In this document: piece after piece, positions 4,881-64,000 of the stretch
Layout: every line of letters begins with the position of its first letter
How positions within the stretch are numbered: the stretch's first letter is position 1
Assembly: GCA_947561395.2 (NCBI GenBank)
Contig: OX387185.1
Span: 42,790,602-42,854,601 of the forward strand
Origin: Buxus sempervirens
Lineage: Eukaryota > Streptophyta > Magnoliopsida > Buxales > Buxaceae
DNA: 64,000 bases
Direction: 5' to 3'
Notes under the pieces: generated by a model
Seen by the model: only the letters and a program-made list of their open reading frames with translations
Databases searched by the model: none
Told to the model about the DNA's origin: nothing
Made by a program: the position numbers and the translations under genes

Positions 4881-5125
4881 TAGGGTCAAACGGGTCATTA
4901 TCAGGTTAAACGGATTATTATCGAGTTAAATGGGCCATTACTAAGTTAAACGGGTCATTATCGGGTTAAACAGATCATTATTGGGTTAAGCGGGTCATTA
5001 TTGGGTAAAACGAGTCAATATCAGGTTAAATGGGCCATTATCGTGTAAAACGCGTCATTATCGGGTTAAACGGGCCATTCTCGGGTTAAACGGGTCATTA
5101 TCGGGTTAAAACGGATCATTATCGG
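4881..5125 (+). repeat. 20-bp minisatellite, about 12 copies
   Basis: Degenerate tandem copies of GGGTTAAACGGGTCATTATC fill this interval with single-base variation between copies. It ends just before the target duplication of the solo LTR. Confidence 0.9.
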
Positions 5126-41812: not shown

Positions 41813-42349
41813 GACGCCTCCTTGGTCGGACACCATCAACAAAGTTTGAACTTCCTTTCCCCCGACAACCTTCCTCTGCTGGCGTTGCTGCCTTGAATCA
41901 TCCTTGACAAGCATCTAATCATAGGAAGAACGAAAGCCGCCATCACTGCCGCCAATCTGCTGCTCTCAGTCAATTGCAAATTTAGCTCTCTGTTTCTCAT
42001 ATCTAATGGGGGAGCCAGAACCGGTGGCTCTGGGACTATTTGAGCTGTTGGTAGTTTGAACTGCCCCCAATCTGCTGCTCCCCGTCAAAGAAAATGTTAG
42101 AATTTACATTCGCACACGGAAAGGGATTTAAATGAGAAATAGGTTTGAACTTCAAATTTGAAACACTACGCAACAGTGGATATTGAGTGACTGACAAAAA
42201 ACCATACCCCAAAACTTAGAACGACGGGCCTATTCTGAACAATGGAATGTCAGAGAAAAAAATGTTTCAAAATAGAGGGGTTTTGGAATGGGAAAATTAA
42301 TTTTTGATGATACTTTATAAAAATATTTAAATTCAGTTAGCTAGGTTTT

Positions 42350-42560
42350 GACTTATGTGTTTCAGCACACCTTTATCAAACTAATTAACATTTAGTAGCA
42401 TTCCACTGTTGCAAGCCAATTTATTCCAAGAATGCCTTCTACGTATGAAATGTAACAAGGTTTTCAGTAGTGTGTTTCAGTACACATTTACCAAACTAAT
42501 TAACTTTTAGTGACATTTTATTATTACAAGCAAAATGCTTCCAAGAATGCCCTTTTCTCA
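42350..42560. repeat. Tandem duplication in the left foldback arm, about 114-bp period
   Basis: TGTGTTTCAGCACACC...AAACTAATTAAC at about 42356 recurs with changes at about 42470. The right arm has a similar arrangement in inverted order near 50230-50400. Confidence 0.65.
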
Positions 42561-42637
42561 TTTTAAGTAAAATAGAAAATTAAATACATAGATTTCAAAG
42601 AATACCGTTATTATTAGAGATCATTGAATTAAATAAA

Positions 42638-42997
42638 GGGAAAATTGGATTTTAGTGATACTTTTTCAAAATTATTCAAATTCAATCGAGTAATTTTTTA
42701 AAATTGAGAATTAGTGATACCTTTCTTAAATAATTTGGAATCAGTGTCATTTTACTATTTGTAAAGAATTTCTTTCAAAAATACCTTCAAAAGAGTTACA
42801 AACCTCACTTGTACCTAAATGAGTGAAAAGCTTTCAAAGTATTTTGAGGGCATTGTCAGAAGAAAGTATTGATGAACAATAAAATGACATTGATTTGTAA
42901 TTATTTTAAAAAAAGTATTACTAATTCCTAATTTTCAAGAATTGGGCGACTGAATCTGAATTATTTTGAAAAAGTTACACTAAAAACCAATTTCCCC
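42638..42997. mobile_element. Mutator-like MITE, 360 bp, with 9-bp target duplication
   Basis: Terminal inverted repeats extend over much of the element: left GGGAAAATTGGATTTTAGTG; right, reverse complemented, GGGGAAATTGGTTTTTAGTG. Flanks are TTAAATAAA (42629-42637) and TTAACTAAA (42998-43006), a 9-bp duplication with one mismatch, the MULE signature. The right foldback arm reads through the site without it (reverse complement of about 50140-50175: AATTAAATAAATTTCTAAAA), confirming insertion. Confidence 0.88.
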
Positions 42998-43339
42998 TTA
43001 ACTAAATTTCTAAAAGTACCCTTTTGCCCCCAACATTCTTCTACATTTTTTTTATTTTTTTTCAGAAATCTACAATTTTTTAATTTTTTTTTAGAAAATA
43101 AAGAAAGAAAGGAGAGAGAGTGTGTATAAAACCCCGACCCGAATTATACCTTAATTATTGAGTTTAATTATCTAAAGTGTAATTATTAGACTAATTAAAC
43201 ACTTGTGTTATGAAGGTGAGGTGGAGGTGGATCATGCTTGAGGATTTGGGGGAAAACAAATTGAACTTTATTGAAAGTTATTAAGGTAAGATTTGTTAAT
43301 GTTAAATCTCAATTTTAATTGGCTAAGAATACCCAAGAT

Positions 43340-44040
43340 ACCTCTCAAATGTACCTAAAGTATCTTTTAAGAATACCCAAATAACCTCCTAAGTTACCTA
43401 AGATACCACCGAAGTACACTCATATATTACCCAAAGTACACCCATGTATTACTTAAGGTACACTCCCAAAGAGTACTAAAGTACACCCAAGTATTGCCCA
43501 AGGTACTTCCATTGTATGCCCAAAGTACCCCCAAGTAGTACACAAAGTATCACTGAAGTATTAGCTAAAGTACACATGTATTGCCTAAGGTACCCCACAT
43601 GTATACCTAAAGTACTCCCTTATATTACCTAAGGTACCCCACTTGAATACCAAAGGTACCCCATTGTTTTACCTAAGGTACCCTACTGTTTTACGTAAGG
43701 TACCCCACTGTTTTCCCTAAGGTACACCCCCTTATATAACTAAGGTACCCCCTTCTATTTAACTAAAGTACCCCTTACATAACTAAGGTACCTCTTCTTA
43801 TATAATTAAAGTACCCATCTTATATAAGTAAGGTACCCCCCTGTATAACTAAGATACACCCCTTCTATAACTAAGGTACCCCCTTTTGTATAACTAAGGT
43901 ACCCCCCCCCCCCCCCCCCCCCCTTCCTCCCCACCCAAAAGCATCCCTAAAGTATACTCTTTGAAATAACTAAGGTAAATCCCTTGAAACACCAAGGTAC
44001 CCCCCAGTTAACACTAAGGTACCCCCTAGTATGCCTTAGG
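43340..44040 (+). repeat. Degenerate 20-30-bp tandem repeat with GGTACC core
   Basis: About 30 irregular copies of TAACTAAGGTACCCC-like units, including a 22-base C run at 43902-43923. Lies inside the solo LTR. Confidence 0.85.
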
Positions 44041-45935: not shown

Positions 45936-46723
45936 GGATGGTTATAGTTGACTGGGTTGTTCTTGCCAGTCCATGCGTGGGTGCTCCACTTGGGGTGATG
46001 ACCGTACGCGGCTTCTACCTTTAAGGCGTGAGGTGGCAAATCGGCTAAGGGTGGTTATCTCGATTTACAAACACACCAACCCACGAGTCCTACCAAGACA
46101 GGCTTACAGTATTTGATTGCTTTTATAGAACTGATTTCATGCATTATTCGATTGAGATATTTTGACTTCAGATTTGTATTTTATGTTTGTGAATATTATC
46201 ATGATTTTATAAAATTGCATAAACTGTTTCTATACATGTATGTTTACTGCTTACTAGGACTTTAAGTCTCATGTGTGTTTTGTTTTACCGGTTTTGTTTT
46301 CAGATCCTCCGTGTGAGCACGATATCGGTGCAGAGCCAGGGGGAGAGCCTGAGTATAGGCCTGAGGATTACTATTATTACTCATAGTAGGACTTCTTTTG
46401 TTTGGGCATGTACTTATTCCTTTTTGGATTATAAACTTGAGAGTTACTTTTGTATATGATTGTATATAAGAAAGAGAGATAGTGAGCACCTTAGTTGCCT
46501 TTTTGTATCTAGATATCATATATTTTGGAGTTATTATACGGATGATATTTTGTTAGATGGAAAATTTTTATTCCATGCTTCTTTAACTTCTGCACTCTGA
46601 TGATTACATTGTAATTGCCCAGGAAATTGTGTTTATTAGGTTCTATTGGGCCCATAAGTAGGTCTAAGAGACAAATCGGTGCCGTGATAGGACAGACCCG
46701 GATCTGGGGCGCTACAAAGAGAG

Positions 46724-48305
46724 CATCTCATTAAAATTATTTGTAAAATACTTAAAACATTTTTACCCTTTATTAATTAACTTCTACAATAGCATGTATT
46801 GACTTATACAGCTATAAGGTGACCTATCCCACTTATTATAATGATTTTCACAATATTGTACCGACTTGTACGACTATTTACAACTTGACTCAATAAAATA
46901 ACTTGTACATTCTATCAATTGACTTGTATAAAAATATACACTAACTTGTATGCCTATGGTGATTTTATACATCTATGAGATGACTTGTACAATGTTATAT
47001 ACTAACTTATACAGCTATAAAGCGACTTACCACTCAACCAAATGATCTATACTTGTTATAAGTTGACTTGTACAACAGTATACATTAACTTGTATGCTTA
47101 TATAGACTTATACCTCTCTATCATTGACTTGTACAATGCTATATACTGACTTGTACATTTATAGGACGACCTGTACCACTCAATCAAATGACTTGTACCT
47201 TCTATCAATTAGCTTGTCCAACAATATACACTGACTTGTATGCATATAGAGACTTATACATCTCTGTCAAATGACTTGTACAATGCTGTGTACTGACTTG
47301 TACATTTATAGGGCAACCTATACCACTCAACCAAATGACTTGTACCTTCTATCAATCAACATGTACAAAATATACACTGACTTATATGCCTATAGTGACT
47401 TACATTTATCTATCAAATAACTTGTACAATGCTATATACTGACTTGTATATTTAAGACAACTTGTACTACTCAACCAAATGATTTGTACAACAATATACA
47501 CTGACTTGTATGCCTATAGAGACTTATACATCTTTGTCAGATGACTTGTACAATGTTGTGTACTGACTTGTACATTATAGGGCGACTTATACCATTCAAC
47601 CAAATGACTTGTACCTTCTATCAATTGATTTGTACAACAATATACACTAATTTATATGCCTACATAGACTTATATTTATTTATCAAATGACTTGTACAAT
47701 GCTATGTATTGATTTGTATATGTATAGGATGCCTTGTACGACTCAATAAAATGACTTGTACCCTTTATAAATTGACTTATACAATAATATATATTAACTT
47801 GTATGCTTATGGAGATTTTATAAATCTATGAGATGACTTGTACAATGCTATATACTAATCTGCACAGCTATAAGGCGACTTGTACCACTCAACCAAATGA
47901 CGTGTACCTGTTATCAATTGACTTGTACAACAATATACACTAACTTGTATGCCTATATAGACTTATATCTTTCTGTCAGATGACTTGTACAATGCTATGT
48001 ACTGACTTATATAGCTATAAGACAACTTGTACCATTCAACCAAATGACTTGTACATGTTATCAGTTGACTTGTACAATAGTATACACTAACTTGTATGTT
48101 TATATAGACTTATACCTCTCTATTAGATGAATTGTACAATGTTGTATACTGACTTGTACATTTATAAGACAACATTTACCAATCAACCAAATGACTTGTA
48201 ACTTCTATCAATTGCTTTATACAACAATATACACTGACTTGTATGCTTATAGAGATTTTATACATCTCCACCAAATGACTTATACAATACTAAGTACTGA
48301 CTTTG
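46724..48305 (+). repeat. Tandem array with GACTTGTAC core, left foldback arm
   Basis: Higher-order units of about 145-150 bases (for example from about 47124 to 47273), each built of several shorter degenerate pieces carrying GACTTGTAC, such as ATGACTTGTACAATGCTATA. Not coding. Confidence 0.9.
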
Positions 48306-48419
48306 CTGCTATAAGGCGAACGGAGAAGAAAGAAAGGGGGAGGAAGAAAGGGAGGGTATTAATCAAATGACTTGTAAAATCCTTGAGAGGGAGAGAGACA
48401 GAGAGGGGAGAAGGAGTGA

Positions 48420-50075
48420 GAGTACAAGTTATTTTATTAAGTGATATAGATCGTCCTATAAATATATAAGTCAGTGCATAGCATTGTAAAAGTCATTTGA
48501 TAGAGCGATATAAGCCTCTGTAAGCATACAAATCAGTGTATATTGTTGTCTAAGGCAATTGATGGAATGTACAAGTCATTTGATTGATTGGTAAATGTTG
48601 TCTTATAAATGTACAAGTCAGTACACAGCATTGTACAAGTCATTTGACAAAGATGTATAAGTCTCTGTAAGCATACAAGTCAATCGATAGAAGGTACAAG
48701 TCATTTGGTTGAGTGGTACAGGTTGTCCTATAAATGTACAAGTCAATACATAGCATTGTACAAATCGTCTGACAGAGGGATATAAGTCTATATAGGCATA
48801 AAAGTTAGTATACATTGTTGTACAAGTCAATTGATAACAGGTACAAGTCGCCTTATAGCTGTGCAGATTAGTATATAGTATTGTACAAGTCATCTCATAG
48901 ATTTATAAAATCTCCATAAGCATACAAGTTAGTGTATATTATTGTACGAGCCAATTTATAAAAGGTACAAGTCATTTTATTAAGTCGTACAAGTCATCCT
49001 ATACATATACAAATCAATATATAGCATTGTACAAGTCATTTGATAGATAAATATAAGTCTCTGTAGTCATACAAGTCAGTGTATGTTGTTGTACAAGTCG
49101 ATTGATAGAAGATACAAGTCATTTAGTTGAATGGTACATGTCATCCTATAAATGTACAAGTCAATACATAGCATTGTACAAGTCATCTTACAAAAATGTA
49201 TAAGTCTCTGTAGGCATACAAGTCAGTGTATATTATTGTACAAGTCAATTGATAAAAGGTAGAAATCATTTAGTTGAGTGGTACAGGTTGTCTTATAAAA
49301 ATACAAGTCAGTATATAACATTATACAAGTAATTTGATAGATAAATATGAGTCTCTGTAGGCATATAAGTCAGTGTATATTTTGAACATGTCGATTGATA
49401 GAAGGTACAAGTCATTTGATTTAGTGATATAGGTCACCCTACAAATATACAAGTCAGTACACAGCATTGTACAAGTTAGTACACAGCATTGTACAAGTCA
49501 TTTGACAGAGAGGTATAAGTCTTTGTAGGCGTACAATTTCAATGTATATTGTTATACAAGTCAATTGACAAAAAGTACAAGTCATTTGGTTGAATGATAC
49601 AGGTCCTCCCATAAATGTACAAGTCAGTACACAGCATTGTATAAGTCATCTGACAAAGAGGTATAAGTCTATATAAGCATTCAAGTTAGTGTATACTGTT
49701 GTACATGTCAACTTATAATAGGTACAAGTCATTTGGTTGAGTGGTACAAGTCGCCTTATAGCTGTATAAGTTAATATATAGCATTGTACAAGTCATCTCA
49801 TAGATGTATAAAATCTCCATATGCATACAAATTAGTGTATATTTTTATACAAGTCAATTAATAGAAGGTACAAGTTATTTTATTAAGTCGTACAAGTTGT
49901 AAATAATCGTACAAGTCGGTACAATATATATATTGTGAAAATCATTATAATAAGTGGAACAGGTCACCTTATAGCTTTATAAATCAATACATGCTATTGT
50001 AGAAGTTAATTAATAAAGGGTAAAAATGTTTTAAGTATTTTACAAATCATTTTATTGAGACGCTCTCTCTCTCTC
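48420..50075 (-). repeat. Tandem array with GTACAAGTC core, right foldback arm
   Basis: The same repeat in inverted orientation (AGCATTGTACAAGTCATTTG and similar), reverse complementary to 46724-48305 over its length. Confidence 0.9.
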
Positions 50076-50459
50076 CCCCCTTTCTTTCTTTATTTTCTAA
50101 AAATAAAAAAAAGACATAGAAGAATGTTGGGGGTAAAAGGGTACTTTTAGAAATTTATTTAATTTAATTGTTCTCCAATAACAACGGCATTCTTTGAAAT
50201 CTAAGTATTTAATTTTCTATTTACTTAAAATGAGAAAATGGCATTTTCGGAAGCATTCGACTCGTAATAATGAAATGTCACTAAAAGTTAATTAGTTTGG
50301 TAAAGGTGTATTGAAACACACTACTAGAAACCTTGGTACTTTTTGTACGAATCAAGTAAAATCAAGTAAAGGGCATTCATGGAATATTTTCATAGGTAAA
50401 AACCTAGCTGGCTGAATTTTAAATATTTTCATAAAGTATCATTAAAAATTAATTTTCCC

Positions 50460-51830
50460 ATAAATAAATTAATTAATTAAAATGAAGCCATTTTGATCCC
50501 CGTCCATTTTCATCTATACGCAAGGTCATCTTTCATGACAAGTTTTGCATTCCTAGCTCCTCTTGAAACCCATGTAGATCAGTTGGACCGTGGCTCATTC
50601 AAATGCGACAATGAGAAAAAGATATCAATCCAAATAATGCCAAAGAACATAGAAGGATAAAAAGTAATCTTCATAAAACGGAAAAAAGAATGGACCCACA
50701 TAAAATATGTATGAATACATCATGAAATAAATAGTGGGTCCCAAAAAAAAAAAGGGAAAACCAAACCTAAAAAAAATAACACATGAGAACGTGAACCTAA
50801 GCAAGAACTAAAATAAAACTTTCAGAAAACAAAGTCCATACTGAAAATGAACAATGCATAAAATCCAATGAACAAATAACAGAAATTTAAAAGAAAACCC
50901 AACTACCAGAGTTCGGTCATTGCTAACCCAACTCCACAAACGTAAGCCAACTGCAAGTTGTGGGACATGTTTTATCACATTGAGAAAATCACGTTTTCAA
51001 GAATCCTAAAGGAGAGACCATGATCCAAGATTCCAAAGAAAGCTGTTTTCAAATATCAAAAGAAAAAGTGCTGTTTTTGACTGTGGAACAGCGGATCAAA
51101 GTAACATGAACACTCGACCAGTCCTAAAAACTGAAGAGTTCTCTTATGGCAACCATGTAAGAATTTTTCTTTGTTTTTCCCCTTTTCCTTTTTTTTGTAT
51201 TCCTGATTCCTGACACTATGATAAGCCATACAAGGTAATTCTCTGTGTCTCAGAATTAATAAATAAATCGACTAATCTAGAAAATAGAGCATTTTCGGAT
51301 GCTCTGTTTTCTGAAAAATTTTACTTTAACAGTCACTTCTAAAAAACCAGCATATTTCCATGACAAAATGTTAATGATAATATGAGATCACACAAGGTTT
51401 GGTCAGATTCCATGAAAAGCATTTGTATTAAAGAGTATTATAAGCCAAAGGCTTGAACACGTAAAAACCCATCATCACATCCCACGTAATCCCAAGATGT
51501 AATCAGGCATTTATTTCATTCAAAGGAAGTGATCTAACTTTATGGAACACAGCGACGTTTAAATCATTTGTAAGTGGCTTCGACCATGCAAAACCTAATT
51601 CAGACGTCACAAACAGTAGCTGCCTATAACCTTGTTAGCAATTGAATATATCAAAATCCCAACATAATAAAAACCAGGCACAAATTTTTCCTAATACCTG
51701 TGATTCTCGCTTGATCTCGTGTGCTTGTGGCTCCTTTTGTCGCAGCTCCTTGAGATGACCTCCTTGACTAGTTCTATCTCCCAAAGACCTCTCCAGAAAC
51801 TCCTCCAAAAGAATCCCCCCTTCAACGTGG
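50460..51830. other. Intergenic DNA upstream of the HMG/Ulp1 gene
   Basis: No recognisable gene to 51634. A minus-strand frame at 51635-51874 (79 codons, Glu/Lys-rich, ending at a possible donor CACAGGTATTAG) overlaps a TATA palindrome at its start, so its ATG would lie upstream of any minus-strand transcript. Its status is doubtful. Confidence 0.4.
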
Positions 51831-51859: not shown

Positions 51860-51989
51860 TTCCATCTCTATCAAACTCTCCCTCTCTCATCCTAACGACC
51901 CCTCTCTCTCTCTCTCTCTCATTCTTATCTCTTAAACCACTCAACTCATCTCTTCAACCAACCGGACGATTTCCTCTACGGCATGCCTC

Positions 51990-52345
51990 TCTACGGCATT
52001 TTTACGGCTCCAATCGACCGTTGCCGCGTGGATGAGAAGGTCTCGTGCGCCTCACGAGACCTTCTTATCCTTTTTCACTGGTCTATTGGTCGAGCAATCC
52101 CCAAACCACCAACCGGCCCAAGACCACCAAACCACCAACCGGTTCGTCCAATTTCTCTATTCATCCGACCAATCCCCAAATCCTCTTCCAACGAGCGCGA
52201 GAGCGAGTATTTTCAAAAACCTTCAACGTTTGGCACTGTCACAACCTCTCTCACGCCATATCGCTGTTGCGGCTTCCATCTGGTCGGCTTCTTTCAATCT
52301 CTTATCAGTCTCTTTGTCGCAACACCGTCTCACTCGTCTGTCCAG
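51990..52345 (+). other. Candidate first exon (5' UTR or N-terminal extension) of the HMG/Ulp1 gene
   Basis: Ends at a strong donor CCAGGTAAGAAA. A frame from ATG 52032 is open to this donor, and its phase matches the next exon (starting 53673), adding about 111 residues rich in Ser, Arg and Leu before the downstream ATG at 53692. No domain is visible in it, so it may equally be UTR. Bases 52346-53672 would be the intron. Confidence 0.45.
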
Positions 52346-53691: not shown

Positions 53692-56600
53692 ATGGAAACT
53701 GTTGGATCATCGTCAACAAAAAGAAAACAGCCGCGCAACAGTTGGCTACATTTCAGGTAAAGTTTCCTTCACTTATTTATTTGTTTTGTTCTACAAGCAA
53801 GCATGGAAGCAATCCAATATTTTGGTTTAACTCTTCGTATAAGTTTGAGTATGGTTGTCAACATGCCGGTTACTTTAATTCCTTTTGCATCGTTGTAATT
53901 ATTAAGTTATTATTGGCCATGATTTTCCTATTGTTTTTTCAGGGACTACTATGTAAATGAAAGAACAAAGAGACTTATTGAAGGTGAACAAATCCGCACG
54001 AAGCAGCAGGTAGGAATTATCAATGGTAACGGTTAAGGAAATCATTTATTTTATTTATTTTGCACTTCTTCGATCTTATTCAAATGAATTTATCTATTTA
54101 GTTATTGCATTTCAGTTATTCGCGGATGCGGCTGAAGCATGGAGGGCAATGAATGAGGCTGAGAAAGAAGAATTTAAGAGAGCGTCACGGCTTGAGTGGG
54201 ACGAATACAGGAGGGCTCTGCCACAACCAGGGCCGCGAAAAACACAACAGGTTCGTGAAATGTCATATCTATAATTGAAATTATTGGGGATAATTAGTTG
54301 AGACTGATATATTCTTTCGTTTCACGTTTGTTTTGTGTAGGCTGAGCTACAGACACGTTGTTCACCTGGACGTTTCATTGCATTCATGCACGCTATTTCG
54401 TTCACCGATTCTCAGGAGCAATGCCTTAGAGAGAGTGGCTTTCAGTGCCTACTGAATTTACACGTGACAAAGCTTAATCGACGACTCTGTCATTGGATTG
54501 TTCCGAAAGTTGATACTAAGAATAGATGTATTAAAGTTGGGGAACTGAATATTTTCTTCGACACACACGATGTGGAGAGGATAATTGGGTTACCCGTACA
54601 AGGGATAGATGTTGATACATCTAAATCAGAAATCCCCGATGTCACAGAGTTGTATAGCTTGTACGGGGTACAAAATGGAATCATCCCTATTCAGAATGTT
54701 GAGGATAGCTTGAAGAGTCCAAAGAACAATCATGAGTGGATCCGTTCTTTTGTATTATATTCGTTGACGACCTTAATAAATCCATCTTCAAAGATTGACG
54801 TGAGTGCATCCTATCTTCCCTTGCTGGTCGATGTAGAGAGGATAGGAAGTTACAACTGGGGAAAGTATCTTTTAGACACATTGATGCATCACGTAGCTGA
54901 GTTTCAAATGGGCAAACGGAAATGCGTCAATGGGTGCTTATTATTTTTACAGGTACGTATAGTATTTACTAGATGCATTGGCTTGTTTACTGTAGCTTAT
55001 GATTCTGTTTGTGCGTCTACTGATAATTCGATTATTGCTTAGTTTTTGTATTACGATCGGCTGATCGTTGGTCAACCAACACCTTCCACTACTCCACGTA
55101 TGGCAGCGTGGACGGATACATTGATTTTCCAAAGGGAGAAAGATGAAACGGCGCTCGGTGGGTATGGGAAGGGGAAGGTATACATATATAAATTTGAGTT
55201 GAACTGCTTCGTCACTTGTAGATTTTGTTGTTAATTTTTCAAATAACGCAACATTTGTACGTACTCACTAATATTGTAGGTGGTTGAGCACCATGCCGAG
55301 AGCCGGGTGCAAGATGAGGCATCAGGCAATGCAGATGAACTAAATATCATTGATCCTGGGCAATTTCGTGGAGATCCAGATCCTGTAAGATTGGTTTATT
55401 TATTTTATTTTATTTTTGTCTTATACCGCACGTTTTCTTATTAAGAACACATCCGCATGTTTTATGATTGGGTGTTGTGTATTCCAGGTTATTCAGGGTC
55501 ATCTTACGAAGATATTGGACACGTATAGGGAGATGCTAAATCACGTGAAGTCAAGGGAAACTGTCGACCCCTCCGATATCCACATGCCACGTGAGAGCCC
55601 TGATCATATGGATGCTCCCGATTCTCCCATGCCCGATGTCCCTGATGAAGCAAGGATGTCACCCTCCCATCATACCACCCACGAGAGCGGGGATCATACC
55701 GATGCTCTCGACACAGCGGTGTTTGCGGAGGTCCAGACAGATAAAATGCAAGTGGATGAGGTGGAGATAGTTCCTGCTCGAAGCGTCACAGGGACCGAGG
55801 TCACCAAACCTCGAAGAGGGTCACGCAAGAAGTCACGTGGTAAACATTGTCGCACTCCATATATTGGCCATCGCCTCCGTCCTCGATTGGGCCCAGAAGA
55901 AAGCTCAATCCTACGATACGTTCGCAAAAACAAGAAGTCTGAGTAAGATAATATTTCGAAACTAACTTGTAAATGTAATTTATGTATTATAATTCGTAGT
56001 GAATAATTCCTCCTCGTTTTTGTCAGTCAAATTATATTCAAATTTGATTCCATCTATGCGTCGGCATCTGAATTGGCATGTTTGTTAGCCAACAATCATG
56101 TTAATAGTGTGGTATGCAAATCCTATCTTGTGAATTATATATTGGTTGTTCAATTATACATGTCATCGCTCAATGGTATTTTTTTATAGGCTATCAATGC
56201 TTTTGGAGCATGTCTTACAAAGAACCAACAATTGTCGACTACCCGCAAAGTCAACCGACATTATTGCCCCACATACGTTTGTGTAAGGACTTCTTTGTAT
56301 TTTATTTGTTTTTTGTTCAAGGCCAGACTAATGAATAAAATTTCCTTGCATGTATCATGCAGGAGTGGATAATGAATATTAATCGTGGTTCCACCGAATC
56401 CTTGCGTCCTCACTTCGATCCAGGGCGACTTGGATATTCTGTGGTTGCATGCGATCTTGTAAGTTTCTTGTGATGCAATGCAATGTGCCACCTTCATAAA
56501 TTATTTGTTTCAGATTTTTTATACTTTTATCCTTACTTAGCAGTCTGTAATCCGTTTTTTATTTATAAGGTTATCTTACTATACTGTAGATTTTTGTTCC

Positions 56601-57276
56601 CATGCATCGGCACAATCATTGGTTTCTTTTAGTTTTAAACCTAAAAGAGCGGAGAGTGGATGTGCTTGACTCAATGGATGGGGCGCGTCGTGCGGGACAT
56701 CAATCCAGAATTGAAACACAAGTAATTTTGATATTAATGAATTTTTCTCATACCATTTACAATACTTATTATATTGACACTCGCTTCGTCACTTTTAGAT
56801 CAAGATGTTGGATAAGATCTTACGTGACTGCGGAGGTGGTGATGAATTTCCACTTTTACAGTGGGAGTTGCGGCAAGTTACGGTCCCACACCAAACCAAC
56901 GGGTAAGCCGTTAGGTTTGTTTCGCGTCATACATATGCTAGTTTCTTACAAGTGATGTGCTGTTAGGTATGATTGTGGTGTTTTTTTGATGAAATTCATG
57001 GAGGTGTGGGATGGCAGCACCTTGTCTCCAGCATTTGATCAGGTGCGTATATGAGTTAAATGTTTTTTTATAATTATAGTTATCAATTACGTCGCTAGTA
57101 ACACACAAGTACGTCTTCTATGAATTCAGAGTAATATCGCACACTGTAGGGATAAGTTCCTTGTTCACTTCGTTAAGCACCCGTCAAACCAAGTACGGGA
57201 TATCATTGTTTCTAAGGCAGCAAACACAAGTGAAGAGGCACGTGAAGAGGAGAGTAGTGAAGGTGAAGAAGCCTAA
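53692..57276 (+). CDS. HMG-box / plant-mobile-like / Ulp1 (C48) cysteine protease, 14 exons
   Basis: Exons 53692-53756, 53943-54009, 54116-54250, 54341-54952, 55043-55177, 55280-55384, 55488-55942, 56027-56111, 56190-56282, 56363-56458, 56590-56721, 56799-56902, 56967-57042, 57130-57276; all GT-AG, phases consistent, 2307 nt, 768 residues, no internal stop. Residues 14-84 resemble an HMG-box (NSWLHFRDYYVNERTKR, then AEAWRAMNEAEKEEFKRAS). Residues 90-340 resemble the plant mobile/DUF1985-type region (VDTKNRCIKVGELNIFFD, RIIGLPVQGI). A linker with KPRRGSRKKSRGK follows. The C-terminal third is a Ulp1/SENP protease with His626 (HNHWFLLVLN), Asp643 (DVLDSMDG), Gln692 and Cys698 (GYDCGVFLM), so catalysis of SUMO-type cleavage is plausible. 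The tail is acidic. Such Ulp1 genes are known cargo of Mutator-like elements. Confidence 0.88.
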
Positions 57277-57792
57277 GAGGTAAGACCTATCTGTCACATG
57301 TTCAATAACAAGGTTATTTGAAACTAATAACACTCAGGTGCGTACTTTTCATTGTTTATTTGCAAGATTCACAACTCCGGCATTCGTGGCTTGATAGCAA
57401 GGTGAAGAAGCTGAAGGCCATCTTAAACATCAACGTACAGCGGACGATTGTACATTAAATTATTTGTACATTAAATTTGTACATACACATCAAATTGTAC
57501 AACGGAAGATGGTTGTAGAATTAAATTGTACATGAAATTGTTTGTGAGAGGAAGACAATTGTAAATTTACAATATTATCAATCCCTTTTTGAAGTTACTT
57601 CCTTCTACTGTGATGACAAGTCTTTTCTCCGTTTTTACAATTGTAAATTTTAATATTATCAATCTCTTTTTTAAAATTAAACTCTTAAGACATTTTAGAA
57701 AAGACCTACTTAATTAGTTACATCCACAATTGGTCGACCAATTTGCTCTTTTAATTTAGTCGAAAAAATAAATTATAGAAGAGATAATCGAT
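57277..57792 (+). other. 3' UTR and AT-rich spacer
   Basis: A 3'-UTR intron may begin at 57280 (GGTAAGACC) and end near 57366. From 57440 on, TTGTACATTAAAT-type phrases repeat irregularly. No gene. Confidence 0.45.
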
Positions 57793-58534
57793 GTCAAACC
57801 ATGCCTAGGTACAAGTCAAACCATGCGTAGTTACAAGTCAAACCATGCCTACGTACAAGTCAAACCATGCGTAGTTACAAGTCAAACCATGCCTACGTAC
57901 AAGTCAAACCATGCGTAGTTACAAGTCAAACCATGCCTAGGTACAAGTCCAACCATGCCTAGGTACAAGTCAAACCATGCGTAGTTACAAGTCAAACCAT
58001 GCCTACGTACAAGTCAAACCATGCGTAGTTACAAGTCCAACCATGCCTAGGTACAAGTCAAAGCATGCCTAGGTACAAGTCCAACCATGCCTAGGTACAA
58101 GTCAAACCATGCGTAGTTACAAGTCAAACCATGCCTACGTACAAGTCAAACCATGCGTAGTTACAAGTCCAACCATGCCTAGGTACAAGTCCATCCATGC
58201 CTAGGTACAAGTCAAACCATGCCTAGGTACAAGTCAAACCATGCATAGGTACAAGTCCAACCATGCCTAGGTACAAGTCCATCCATGCCTAGGTACAAGT
58301 CCATCCATGCCTAGGTACAAGTCAAACCATGCCTAGGTACAAGTCCATCCATGCCTAGGTACAAGTCAAACCATGCCTAGGTACAAGTCCAACCATGCAT
58401 GCATAGGTACAAGTCAAACCATGCCTAGGTACAAGTCCAACCATGCCTAGGTACAAGTCAAACCATGCATAGGTACAAGTCCAACCATGCCTAGGTACAA
58501 GTCAAACCATGCCTAGGTACAAGTCCATCCATGG
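57793..58534 (+). repeat. 22-bp satellite, about 34 copies, with higher-order variants
   Basis: The unit is GTCAAACCATGCCTAGGTACAA. Variants alternate: CCTAGGTAC, CCTACGTAC and GCGTAGTTAC forms in the first half, with GTCCAACC and GTCCATCC forms more common later. The spacing is regular except for one 4-base ATGC insertion near 58400. Confidence 0.97.
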
Positions 58535-58589: not shown

Positions 58590-58905
58590 CGCGCCGCTCG
58601 AGCGTCAAACGTGTCATGCGAGAACCCAGAAAAGTCCAAGTATGGCGCTTTCGGGGAGATTTCGGCCCGCTCGAGCGTCAAGGCGAAATTAAAAAACTCA
58701 GAGAACCCGAGAGCGACGCTCTGCGCGCGACTTGGGACCGCTCGAGCGTCAAGGCGAAATTGAAAAAAACACAGAGAACTCGAGAGCGACGCTCTGCGCG
58801 CGACTTGGGCCCGCTCGAGCGTCAAGGGGAAATTGAAAAAACCACGGAGAACCCTAGAGTGACGCTCTGCGCGCGACTTGGAGCCGCTCAAGCGTCAAGC
58901 CGTAA
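58590..58905 (+). repeat. GC-rich 71-bp tandem repeat, about 4.5 copies
   Basis: CCGCTCGAGCGTCAA (last copy CTCAAGCG) recurs at about 58597, 58668, 58738, 58809 and 58881. Each unit also carries GAGAGCGACGCTCTGCGCGC. It lies directly upstream of the 59418 gene. The frames predicted through it on both strands are repeat artefacts. Confidence 0.92.
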
Positions 58906-59417
58906 TTTTAAAAAAACTAAAACCCGAGCTTAAAAACCCTGCGATCCCTTCTTCTTCGTATTCTCTCCTTGTTGCGACCATCACCACCCCTTCCACTACT
59001 CCAAGTCGATTCGCCAGGCATTTGCAACGTTGTCCTTCAGATTGAATCCAGGGCAATATTTCGTTAGCCCAAGGTACGTGGGGACAATATTTCACATTTC
59101 TCTTCACACAATATTTCGTTCGCCCAATATTTCGTTCACATTTCCATGTTTTAGGATTTCATTTAGGATGGTTTATACATTGAAGACAATGACTCTTGTT
59201 GTTGTTTCATCACACTTCTGAACCGATTTCATCTTATTTAACCAATGACGCTTGTCGTTCATGCATTGGGTGTATCTTTTCGTTGGTTTTTAAACGATTT
59301 CATATATATATATATATATATATTTTGTTATATTTCCTTTCTCCTTCTTCCATTGCTTGAATATGTGCATCTCAACCTTTCTTTTCATCGCGATCTAATA
59401 CTATACTGTTAATGCAG
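58906..59417 (+). other. Promoter/5' UTR of the plant-transposon-protein gene
   Basis: A donor at 59073 (CCCAAGGTACGTGG) and an acceptor GTTAATGCAG at 59417 suggest a 5'-UTR intron ending immediately before the ATG. A (TA)n run lies at about 59302-59322. Confidence 0.45.
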
Positions 59418-60551
59418 ATGCCTAAAAAACGCAGCCGAGGGTCTACGTCTAACGTACAACCTCATGATTTTGATACCGAATATTTTATTGACCGCCATGC
59501 GTAAATGAGGTTTCGTCAATACTTGCACAACCGGAGTCTCCTGTTAGAGCGGGAGGTAATAATCCGCGAGCTTGATCCCGACATTACTTCAGTTTTTACT
59601 TCTAGGGGTTGGGAGCCTTTGCTCACAAATCTTCCTGCACCCCAAGCCATCCTTGTTCGGGAGTTCTATGCAAACGTGCATGATTGGTCCCTTAGCCCTC
59701 CCAGATTCAAAGTGTATTTTCGTGGTCGAACAATTTCCATCACCCCTGGTATCATCTCTGAGATATTAGGGATACCAAGAGTGCCTGAGCCTCGATATCC
59801 TTACCATGAGACAGACACCCCTTCACCTACTATTATGGCATCATTTGTGTTAGGCAGTACTACCCCTTTCTATGGAACACATCTAGTGATTGATAATATT
59901 CCAACTCTTCGGTCGGTTGTTCTTCGGATTATGAGCACCAACATATGCCCAGTGGCTCATTTACATACCCTCCCACTCCAGAGACTTAGCTTCTTTTATG
60001 CATTACTCCAAGGTCATTCAATAGACCTTCCTTCTCAAATGATTCGTTCCATGCTACACATTATAATGCACTTCAAACGGAAGCGGAAACTTATATTCTC
60101 TTGCCTCATTACCCGACTCATGCAAGGACTTGACGTAGTAATCCCAGAAATTGAGCGACCTCTAGTGCTTCCACCGCTTATTGGGCCTACGACCGTAGCA
60201 CAGAGTGTTGCGCATGCTAATACTGCTACTCGGGCTGGTGCTCTTCGTCCACGGCGTCAATTATCTTCCCAGGCTGGAACCTCTCATTCTGGTTCATCTT
60301 CGGCATCTTCGGCTGCTCCTTCATTTGATCCACCTGCCGTTATGGATTATTTGTCAAGGATTTATGAAGTCCAGCAACAATCGCGCGCAGAAGTGGCGCT
60401 GATCCGGTCGACCCAAGAGACGCAAAGCCGGCAACTTGCAGAGATACAGGGAGCAGTGTCGCAACTTCAACTGCACTTTAACCAGGAGCAAGAGGACGAA
60501 GAGGGGGAGGATGACGAGGATGATGACGATGAAGAACGTGAGGCAGACTGA
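59418..60551 (+). pseudogene. 'Putative plant transposon protein' domain gene with one nonsense codon
   Basis: Starts MPKKRSRGSTSN (a likely nuclear signal) at 59418 right after a splice acceptor, reads 28 codons, hits TAA at 59502-59504, and continues in the same frame from ATG 59505 for 348 residues. The body (SRGWEPLLTNLPAPQAILVR, EFYANVHDW, VYFRGRTISITPGIISEILG, LPLQRLSFFYALLQGHSIDL) matches the plant-specific domain found in many transposon-derived proteins. After it come a Ser/Ala/Pro linker, a Gln-rich coiled coil (QQQSRAEVALI, ETQSRQLAEIQGAVSQLQL) and an acidic tail of Glu/Asp. The molecular role is unknown. One substitution would separate this from an open gene of 377 codons, or the second ATG may be used. 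Confidence 0.75.
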
Positions 60552-60955: not shown

Positions 60956-63900
60956 TCAAGGAGCCTTGTTTGCAGCTTTTGCTGCTGCTTTCTCTGCTTC
61001 GAGCTCAGTAACAGTTGCATCAATTGCCGCCTCATCAAGCTGTTGCAGTCCCTTATCTTTTGTCATCACAGCAATTTCTATGTGTTTTCCCCCACTCTCA
61101 ACAACCTAAATGCAATATAACAAAATCATGTTCAAAATATAGATTAGACACTGTGCATTGGGAACAAATCATGTCTTCTGGATCAATAAGTTAGCAAGCA
61201 TTCCTTTAGTTTAAAATATAGATTAAACAATTTGCACGTGAAATAATTTCTAATAAAACAATTCAATTACCTGTTTGCGACCTTCAAACGTTTCTATATG
61301 GTTGAGATCCAACAGGAGATAAATACGTCTGAAGGAAAAAAGTGTTGCGTTAAATACATGTGATATTATGAAAAAAACTCAACAACTTACAGTATTCGCA
61401 CCTGCAACAATTGAGTAAAAGGTTGATCACATTGGCAAAGGGAATCCCGGCTGCATTGAGATGAGTCATACGTGCTTGGTGTCGAGCCATTAGTGTGTTC
61501 ATCCACACTGCTTTCTACCCCACGCGTATATCGTAACGGTTGCTGTACAACGCACAAACTATCCAACATAAATAATCCGCCACAATTGTAGAAAGTGAAT
61601 CAAAAATTAAAGACAACAAATACCTGAATGCAAAGAGTATATGGATTCAAATGGACATCGGATGGGATCATCAATAGCTCATTTCCAAATGGAGCCGATG
61701 GAACAGTATGATTGACAATAGGAGTTGCATTGGAACAGGTACCAACTTCAAAGTTTGAACGTTTACCCTTTGTTCCGCTTTTATGGTTCTGTTTGATAGC
61801 ATCTATATGCAACGGGCTCCCAGAATATTCTGATCTTTTGGATCTCTTCCTGATGGCTTTATTGAGTGCTCCTGGAATTCGACGCACACTTGTTCCTGCA
61901 CGACCACCCTTATCCTTCTTCCGAATACGTTTCACTTTAGAAAGTACATCTTCTATCAAAGCTCCGTCATTAGAAGTATGATTGTCAGTCGCACCGCCCG
62001 TGCTTACTCCCTCAGTGCCGCCTACAACGTAGTCAGCCGCTGTATTTTGGGAGCCGGCTGTACTATATGTTGCGGTGGGATGGTTTTGAGATTGATTTTC
62101 CAATGTTTTTCCAATTGCAATTGTACGGACTCCGTCTTTTAACTTATTTGCCAATTCCACAGCATGCTCATACGACTCCCGGTATTGTGCAGCTTGCTTT
62201 ATAATCTGCATATACATATAACATAGATCTTTGTATCTTTTGGTTGTTTCGACTTTAGGATCATTCTCCTCCATTGATCCCTCGGTTCGTGGCAAAATAT
62301 CCAAGTTCTTCGCATCCCTTGTCCATCACTTCATGATGTAATGCTTTGGGATATGTGTGATTCCATTTACTAGCAACACAATAAGGACATGGCAACACAG
62401 TATTCCCGCGTACTCATATTTCTTGCAACTACACTTGACGGTGACAGTCGAAGATTCAAATGTAACTGTGTGCTCTCTACGCCGATGCTCAAGATTATTA
62501 ACAACCTTATACTCTGAAAGTGTGCCAATCTCACCACATTTGCAGGGGACACAGTTCATGACATTGTATGCCTCTTTCTTAACCTTCTCAAAAATTGACA
62601 TTGTGTATATCATCTTGACACCATCTAACATCATACTTGGAGCCTCAATAACTGGAACAGTAGTAAGCATTTTGCAATCTGCTTTCAACTCCTCATACCT
62701 TCTATCCTCTAGTAGTCTGTCAAAATGCCACAGGAACCGCATAAATTCTTTCTGACTTTGCAAATGCTTCTTCAAGTTTGCATTCATGCTTTCAGACATT
62801 TGTGTGGTGCTCATCTCAGCAGAAAACATATTCCTACCGTATGCCAATGACCATTTCTCTCTCTCATCAAATCTTGCCTGCAACCAACTATTATCAGACA
62901 GATTATATTTGGTAATCATCGCATTCCACGCATCCACAAACTCATCTTCATTCTCATACTCGTACACACATCGTGAAAATTCATTTGCAAAAGATTTCTC
63001 ACGATTAAACACATCACTTAGATGTTTTGCCGCGTTCTGAAACATGTGCCACACACAAAAACGATGATACGTTCTTGGTAATACACAAGCAATTGCACTT
63101 GTCATTGCTTGATCATGATCAGTGAGAAGTGTTCTTGGTTCTTTCCCAGACATAGCTGTTACAAATGTTTTGAAGAGCCAGCAAAACGTCGGTATTGTTT
63201 CATCATAAAGTAAGGCTGCTCCAAAGACAATACTTTGTCTATGATGATTTACCCCAACAAATAATCCAAAAATACGGCCCTCCTTATTCGTCTTATACGT
63301 TGTATCGAAACATACAACGTCACCGAAAGCCTTATAATCCTCTATCATTCCTCCATCCGCCCAAAAAAGACTTGTTATCAAATCTTCAGTGTCGAGCTCA
63401 ATAGAATAGAAAAATGATTGATCCTCTACCTGCCTCTTAACAAAATATTGAATCAAGGCCCCTGCCTGCCCAGCTTCTATGGCAGTCGTGCGTTTCGAAC
63501 GCAAATAGTTTTGACAATCCGCATGCATAAATCCAAGAGTATCAACACCCCCAGCTTCTCTTTGCATAAGTTCTACAATTGCTTTCGGCGCAATTCCTGT
63601 TTTATCTGCTAAATCGATTTTCGTAGCCTGGATCTCACTTACTTGCCTATGAGATCTTAACATATGAGCCATCTTAGGCAAAAGTAACTGATGATTATGC
63701 TTTGGTTCAAATTGCGACACCACAAATTTTCCCTCGCCATTCATCAAAATCCTCAATCGTGCCATACAACCAATCCTGGTCTCAGCACGGTGCTTTTGAA
63801 CTTCCGTATCTCTTTTATCATGTCGCCGATGACCTTCTCTTGAACAGCAAAAAATTCTATCAAAAATGACCCCTGTATCCTTTCTTCTGTGAACCGTATC

Positions 63901-64000
63901 TCTTCTAATACCAAACCCAGTGCTTCTGGCATATTCCTTATAAAATCTAAAACCGTCCTCTTCAGTGGCAAAAACCATGCCAACCAACGGTATCAACTCA
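60956..64000 (-). pseudogene. FAR1-related / MULE transposase gene, one nonsense codon, 5' end outside window
   Basis: Exons on the minus strand: 61624 to beyond 64000, 61391-61542, 61271-61328, 60956-61105 (ends KAAAKAANKAP, stop). The large exon shows the FAR1 zinc-binding region (visible residues 5-105: VFATEEDGFRFYKEYARSTG, ending EPKHNHQ), a MULE-type DDE domain (VVCFDTTYK, Asp231; LLTDHDQAM, Asp293; Glu402 in MSESMN is a candidate third acidic residue) and a SWIM zinc finger (VKCSCKKYEYAGILCCHV). Directly after YIMK the frame has TGA at 62326-62328, where the family usually has Arg (KRWT), then continues in frame with WTRDAKNLDILPR for 230 more codons with basic clusters. One transition explains the stop. 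It could be an immobile transposase or a decayed regulator; the transposase origin is clear either way. Confidence 0.85.

Follow-up and report, generated by a model that had tools for sequence, protein, structure and literature searches.

A multicopy MULE gene of Buxus sempervirens that joins an HMG-box-like region, a plant mobile domain and a Ulp1 protease and is followed by a tandem motif array

A 14-exon gene of Buxus sempervirens encodes an HMG-box-like region, a plant mobile domain and a Ulp1 protease in a single frame, which raises the question of what such a protein would do, and on what DNA. The gene lies in a stretch of 64,000 nucleotides (assembly GCA_947561395.2, contig OX387185.1, positions 42,790,602-42,854,601 of the forward strand, or C6:42790602-42854601 in the 676.5 Mb of genome that was searched), referred to here as the window, whose own numbering is used below. 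We propose, at roughly even probability, that it is an accessory gene of a Jittery/FAR1-type MULE, the product of which would act as a VANC/KIU-like, sequence-specific anti-silencing factor and putative deSUMOylase.

The gene, its copies and its carrier element

The gene occupies positions 53692-57276 of the plus strand and encodes 768 amino acids comprising the HMG-box-like domain, the plant mobile domain, a linker and a Ulp1 C48 protease. Its exons, all on the plus strand, were independently re-derived as 53692-53756, 53943-54009, 54116-54250, 54341-54952, 55043-55177, 55280-55384 and 55488-55942 (exons 1-7) and 56027-56111, 56190-56282, 56363-56458, 56590-56721, 56799-56902, 56967-57042 and 57130-57276 (exons 8-14). 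When rebuilt from the DNA, all 13 introns were found to be bounded by GT and AG, and splicing gave a frame of 768 amino acids followed by a stop codon, in exact agreement with the preliminary description of this DNA, which had joined 14 exons into a 768-residue frame.

A genome search returned at least 150 matches to HMG exon 3 (178 candidates, 150 scored), among them subfamilies at 59-70% identity, and at least 144 to C48 (509 candidates, 150 scored). At 107 of the 144 C48 places listed, the HMG exon was found no more than 8 kb upstream and in the same orientation, in 99 of these at a distance of 2.0-3.2 kb; on the wrong strand or side, which served as a control, it was found at 0 of the 144. 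The other 37 C48 places include different Ulp1 genes (L001, L025) and truncated copies (L016), and some are possibly copies whose HMG exon lay outside the 150 scored. L001 and L025 are C48 loci outside this gene family. HMG and C48 matches with equal scores also occur about 104 kb apart (G000:C8:48226391/48330371 and 48245082/48349064), a probable segmental duplication.

Twenty C48 places were taken as 10-kb stretches, of which 19 hold the gene and one (L025) does not; recent copies are over-represented among them, as ten of the 20 were taken from a group with similar scores. Among the resulting 20 genes (19 fetched copies and that of the window), all 14 exons are present in 16, and an uninterrupted 768-codon frame with every GT and AG is found in seven, the window included. 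One further gene has an open frame and has lost the exon-9 acceptor, eight are broken and four are incomplete. Given this recurrence across gene copies, the 14-exon chain exceeds chance.

The gene sits inside a complete MULE of 12,846 bp, which extends from position 51963 to 808 bp past the end of the window; its ends were set by a comparison to which one copy contributed both of its flanks, another its left flank and the window its right flank. The left terminal inverted repeat (TIR; 113 bp, 51963-52075) is 96.5% identical to the right one, which lies beyond the window (in L032), and it is preceded by a 9-bp target site duplication (TSD), TCAACCAAC (51954-51962), a perfect right copy of which follows the element outside the window. 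As the right end is beyond the window, a TIR search inside the window alone returned none. A second copy read end to end measures 12.9 kb and has TIRs that are 87% identical; no matching TSD was seen for it.

The element contains three genes: the Ulp1-fusion gene and a Transposase_32 gene on the plus strand, and a FAR1-MULE-SWIM transposase on the minus strand. The Transposase_32 gene (PF20167; 59418-60551) has an in-frame stop at 59502-59504 and is present, within the stretch read, in 18 of the 20 gene copies. The transposase (60961-64000, its start outside the window and its final exons, as far as 60961, assigned by eye) has an in-frame stop at 62326-62328 and matches PF03101 (FAR1; 1.8e-25), PF10551 (MULE core; 1.5e-25) and PF04434 (SWIM; 1.4e-5). 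By its predicted transposase, the carrier agrees with the features tabulated for the Jittery clade in the part of PMC6446971 that was consulted. The Mutator-type carrier that the preliminary description had suggested was thus found, with its TIRs, TSD and transposase. The description had also contrasted the open frame with neighbours that carry stops; each neighbour does carry one stop in the window, but these neighbours are genes of the same element, and the other end-to-end copy has no interruption in either the Transposase_32 frame or the main transposase frame.

An intact frame beside two neighbouring genes with stops might also be expected if the host had domesticated the gene from a transposon and retained it for a role in chromatin. 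This we regard as highly improbable: TIRs and a perfect TSD flank the locus, the neighbours are parts of the same element, and the genome holds the numerous matches to the HMG exon and to C48 given above. Copy number, TIRs and TSD likewise speak against a lone gene.

The whole gene is under purifying selection, with a dN/dS of 0.41-0.48, and these values are themselves raised by the decay of dead copies. Between two subfamilies that are about 80% alike (12 x 6 sequences, 72 pairs, or 60 for the HMG part, with stops and gaps skipped), dN/dS was 0.35 for the HMG part, 0.48 for the plant mobile domain, 0.52 for the linker, 0.46 for Ulp1 and 0.48 overall; it was 0.42 among the seven intact copies and 0.41 within the second subfamily. 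A codon bootstrap of the window against L028 gave a pN/pS of 0.44 (0.35-0.56) for the whole gene and of 0.36 (0.18-0.69) for the HMG part. In one of five pairs (L010-L021), the linker and Ulp1 were indistinguishable from 1, and in the window-L020 pair the interval for Ulp1 reached up to 1.00. Selection, at which the open frame had been taken to hint, is therefore borne out by values below 1, although interruptions are present in eight of the 16 copies that have all exons; it acts on the transposon lineage and not evidently on the host.

Domains of the encoded protein

With regard to the C-terminal part (exons 8-14, 56027-57276, plus strand), Peptidase_C48 scored 67.7 bits in the window protein, above the curated Pfam cut-off of 20.7, and the Ulp1 piece matched SENP2 in the PDB at 3.1e-9, as well as SENP1, Ulp1 and a Ulp1-like SUMO protease. 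The catalytic residues H626, D643, Q692 and C698 are all present in the rebuilt protein, as the preliminary description had stated of a complete Ulp1 set. The plant mobile-like domain that it named was likewise recovered as PMD (exons 4-5, residues 146-319, 54341-55177, plus strand), with 48.9 bits against a cut-off of 34.9, and 51.9 bits for exons 4-6 alone. DUF1985, the VANC domain, overlaps the same stretch at 19.7-22.1 bits, below its cut-off of 35.1, and PMD wins there.

The N-terminal domain (exons 1-3, residues 12-80, 53692-54250, plus strand) was described earlier as an HMG box. HMG_box scored 20.1 bits in the whole protein (E 9e-4) and 24.1 bits in the N-terminal 89 amino acids (E 4.8e-5), below the Pfam cut-off of 25.4. 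HMG_box and HMG_box_2 were listed at E<=1 in the N-termini of 10 of 10 different copies, at best with 1.7e-5 and 0.003; as these N-termini are 79-99% identical to the first, they attest consistency and are not independent tests. After shuffling, HMG_box was listed at E<=10 in 0 of 9 N-termini. Against the PDB, the best nine matches of the single sequence were all TFAM HMG chains, at E 0.08-0.17, and a profile of the ten members matched no HMG protein. The earlier assignment thus stands as regards its consistency among copies and its absence from shuffled sequences, and falls short of the Pfam threshold. Given the sub-threshold score, the close kinship of the copies, the weak TFAM matches and the profile without an HMG protein in the PDB, we call this domain HMG-box-like rather than an HMG box.

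The same score and the same profile search would also fit another charged three-helix stretch that is no HMG box, in which case any DNA recognition would rest on the PMD part. We consider this unlikely, since both HMG families recur in all ten copies and HMG_box in none of the nine shuffles, since TFAM HMG proteins head the PDB matches of the single sequence, weak as these are, and since the HMG part has the lowest dN/dS between subfamilies among the four parts. Two leads bear on an HMG-box-like reader. Asn16 falls on a profile position at which sequence-specific HMG boxes have Asn, whereas Ser is found there in the non-specific boxes. The TACAAG core of the arrays described below is reminiscent of the ACAA of SOX/TCF sites.

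Further searches of the protein gave no match among the NCBIfam families, and an AlphaFold model of exon 4 alone had a mean pLDDT of 33 and was of no use. Bacterial and archaeal genome contigs gave 24 pattern matches with no relative among them, and in viral contigs one relative was counted, without a locus.

Tandem arrays with a common core

The most specific clue to function is the array behind the gene, which the preliminary description had overlooked, along with the TIRs, the TSD and the copy number. In the window, a tandem repeat search with TRF found 33.5 copies of a 22-bp unit with the core TACAAGTC at 57793-58533, on the same strand as the gene and beginning 517 bp past its stop codon; we treat this array, array B, as a candidate docking array. 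Each of the 19 fetched copies, like the gene of the window, is followed on its own strand by a 22-bp tandem array, which makes 20 of 20. Among 18 fetched copies, the distance from the start of exon 14 to the first core of the array is 522-687 bp in 17 and 1,056 bp in one; the nineteenth, L016, in which the array is about 3 kb further off, was excluded from this measure. In L016, the approximately 3 kb between exon 14 and the array appear to be a nested insertion. In 200 kb, 643 cores were found inside arrays, two outside and none on the opposite strand, and the genome contains 1,423 pairs of the GTACAAGTC core at a spacing of exactly 22 bp, as against 0 for the reversed control. Two other features adjoin the array in the window: six of the 38 non-array TTGTAC/GTACAA sites cluster directly past the Ulp1 stop codon (57448-57531), and 73-bp tandem repeats, found by a tandem repeat search, lie on the plus strand between array B and the next gene (58667-58917).

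The same core is also found in an unrelated element. Array A (46718-50068, no strand assigned) is a non-coding fold-back element, separate from the MULE, with arms at 46718-48303 and 48468-50068 that are about 1.6 kb each and 84% alike and that bear the core every 20-22 bp; it is a candidate target in trans. Its 147-bp unit is made up of seven monomers that have the core in common and not the spacer. The 9-mer GACTTGTAC, with the core GTACAAGTC, occurs 44 times in array A and 26 times in array B and is absent from the remainder of the window, as against 0.3 occurrences expected. No coding frame of note was seen in the pieces of the fold-back element that were read. A pattern listing indicates that it, too, is multicopy in the genome.

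The arrays could be minisatellites that evolve neutrally, or they could serve the next gene as an enhancer or a source of siRNA, with a core that is common through repeat descent and not through recognition. RNA-directed methylation can act on tandem repeats, according to the part of PMC10398659 that was consulted, and within one array conservation of the core exceeds that of the spacer only slightly: in monomers chosen by spacer alone (n=688), core agreement was 0.90-0.98, against a spacer mean of about 0.90. Against this, TRF consensus units, obtained with no anchoring and then rotated, contain exactly TACAAGTC in 20 of 20 cases despite spacer bases that vary between subfamilies; the same core and the 22-bp pitch recur with unlike spacers in other elements; and after permutation the unit of array B has an abundant 8-mer in common with array A in 130 of 20,000 trials. 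We therefore hold this reading of the arrays to be rather improbable.

The arrays might instead be binding sites of the element's FAR1-type transposase or of its Transposase_32 protein, the Ulp1 protein acting elsewhere, for example in deSUMOylating the transposase. FAR1 is a DNA-binding domain, subterminal repeats serve as such sites in some DNA transposons, and the core fills the fold-back arms, which are the usual location of transposase sites. In the MULE, however, the array has an internal position, separated by about 5.8 kb from the left end and by about 6.3 kb from the right; it stands behind the Ulp1-fusion gene in every one of the 20 copies, and no TACAAGTC is present in the TIR stretches inspected. 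This makes transposase sites improbable, and we continue with recognition of the core by the Ulp1-fusion protein itself.

A putative anti-silencing role

VANC proteins of VANDAL MULEs bind or act on short motifs, with a consequent loss of methylation, and an element unrelated to VANDAL that carries VANC6 motifs is also affected (consulted part of PMC5735166). The motifs (YAGTATTAY for VANC21; AGTTGTCC and AGTTGTAC for VANC6) occur at high density and in one orientation as tandem repeats in the non-coding DNA of the element (PMC5735166, same part). The Buxus gene resembles Arabidopsis VANC21 and VANC6 in being an accessory MULE gene with a DUF1985/PMD-type region and in its association, in 20 of 20 copies here, with a short motif that is repeated in tandem and in a single orientation within non-coding parts of the element. 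The VANC6 motif AGTTGTAC (PMC5735166) differs by a single base from ACTTGTAC, a likeness that could be due to chance, for which a hand estimate gives about 2%. In contrast to the Buxus gene, VANC21 and VANC6 have no HMG-like part or Ulp1 mentioned in the consulted part of PMC5735166; conversely, DUF1985 is below its cut-off in the Buxus gene, the carrier of which has a FAR1-type transposase.

Some VANC genes include a Ulp1 and are known as KIU (consulted part of PMC13317346). As in KIU and KAONASHI, which occur in VANDALs or KI-MULEs, Ulp1 is fused here to an accessory protein, and the gene is antisense to the transposase and one of three genes of the element. However, KI-MULEs are called non-TIR (PMC13317346 and PMC2528002, parts consulted), whereas the Buxus element has 113-bp TIRs and FAR1, and the Buxus gene has an HMG-like part in addition. 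Ulp1 in a Jittery-type MULE is likewise found in ULP-bearing Jittery-like MULEs of melon and grapevine, for which, unlike here, the consulted part of PMC2528002 mentions neither a motif array nor an HMG-like or PMD part. The plant mobile domain is common to the Buxus gene and to MAIN/MAIL1, which are host genes needed for the silencing of elements, whereas the Buxus gene is a multicopy element gene; fusions of PMD to protease, kinase or phosphatase domains are mentioned as well (consulted part of PMC7156037). Ulp1 in Jittery-like MULEs and Ulp1-bearing VANC genes in VANDALs are thus already known (PMC2528002 and PMC13317346, respectively, as far as consulted).

The anti-silencing reading is based on a carrier of the same kind, a domain of PMD/DUF1985 type, Ulp1, the array, and a core that differs from a VANC6 motif by one base. 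By analogy, the Buxus protein most likely works like VANC/KIU; as DUF1985 fails its cut-off and the function is putative, we do not class it as a VANC. In the literature covered, Sasaki 2022 (EMBO J), reportedly cited for VANC evolution in eudicots, being outside its scope, we recognised no description of an HMG-like domain on a Ulp1 MULE protein, nor was a gene-linked array described in a Jittery-type element.

In the mechanism that we propose, the N-terminal half of the protein (the HMG-box-like region and the plant mobile domain) would dock on the TACAAGTC core in the array downstream of the gene, where a pitch of 22 bp, about two helical turns, would allow many molecules to be loaded along the same face of the double helix. 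The Ulp1 domain at the C-terminus would strip SUMO, or a related modifier, off silencing proteins held on the element; upon SUMO removal, methylation would fall and the transposase would be expressed. Non-coding fold-back elements with the same core could be acted on in trans. Binding, the identity of the core-reading domain, the protease activity and its substrate, the loss of methylation and the action in trans are all steps that we infer. The preliminary description had suggested a DNA-binding deSUMOylase linked to transposition; the MULE carrier and the Ulp1 residues agree with this, the HMG box is sub-threshold, and DNA binding and protease activity are putative.

A broader and more tentative reading, about which we are doubtful, is that Jittery/FAR1 elements would be a second lineage of plant MULEs with an anti-silencing machine of its own, in which an HMG box that reads sequence is combined with a PMD and a deSUMOylase and with a built-in TACAAGTC docking array every two helical turns, and that at least one unrelated non-coding fold-back family, its arms filled with the same core, would live off this machine. 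If true, this would extend transposon-encoded anti-silencing to Jittery-type elements, and SUMO removal would be a missing step between binding and the loss of methylation. The cassette bears on the question of how silencing is removed after VANC proteins have bound DNA, which is named as an important remaining question in the consulted part of PMC5735166. A candidate reader (HMG/PMD), a candidate eraser (Ulp1) and a candidate docking site are united in one cassette, intact copies of which are repeated in one genome, and with a second candidate target family beside it, binding, the enzymatic step and the action in trans are directly testable.

Several other repeats were observed in the window and the genome. 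A third array with a 22-bp period (43404-43906) has another core, CTAAGGTACCCC, and is without TACAAGTC; it is perhaps the docking array of another system. Around array A lie an inverted pair (42288-42637 and 50154-50461) and a nested palindrome (42627-43008) with GGGAAAATT ends, with no target site duplication seen for them. A 20-bp tandem array, GGGTTAAACGGGTCATTATC (12 copies, 4883-5125), has no abundant 8-mer in common with the motif arrays. Finally, the core dimers listed, all from contig C1 and sorted by eye, fall into a MULE type, a fold-back type and a third with the spacer AATAAATTAGCTT or similar. Recurring single motif dimers with the spacer AATAAATTAGCTT or AATAAAGTGACTT, as at G000:C1 8456640 and 22267351, may represent a third type of element with the same core.
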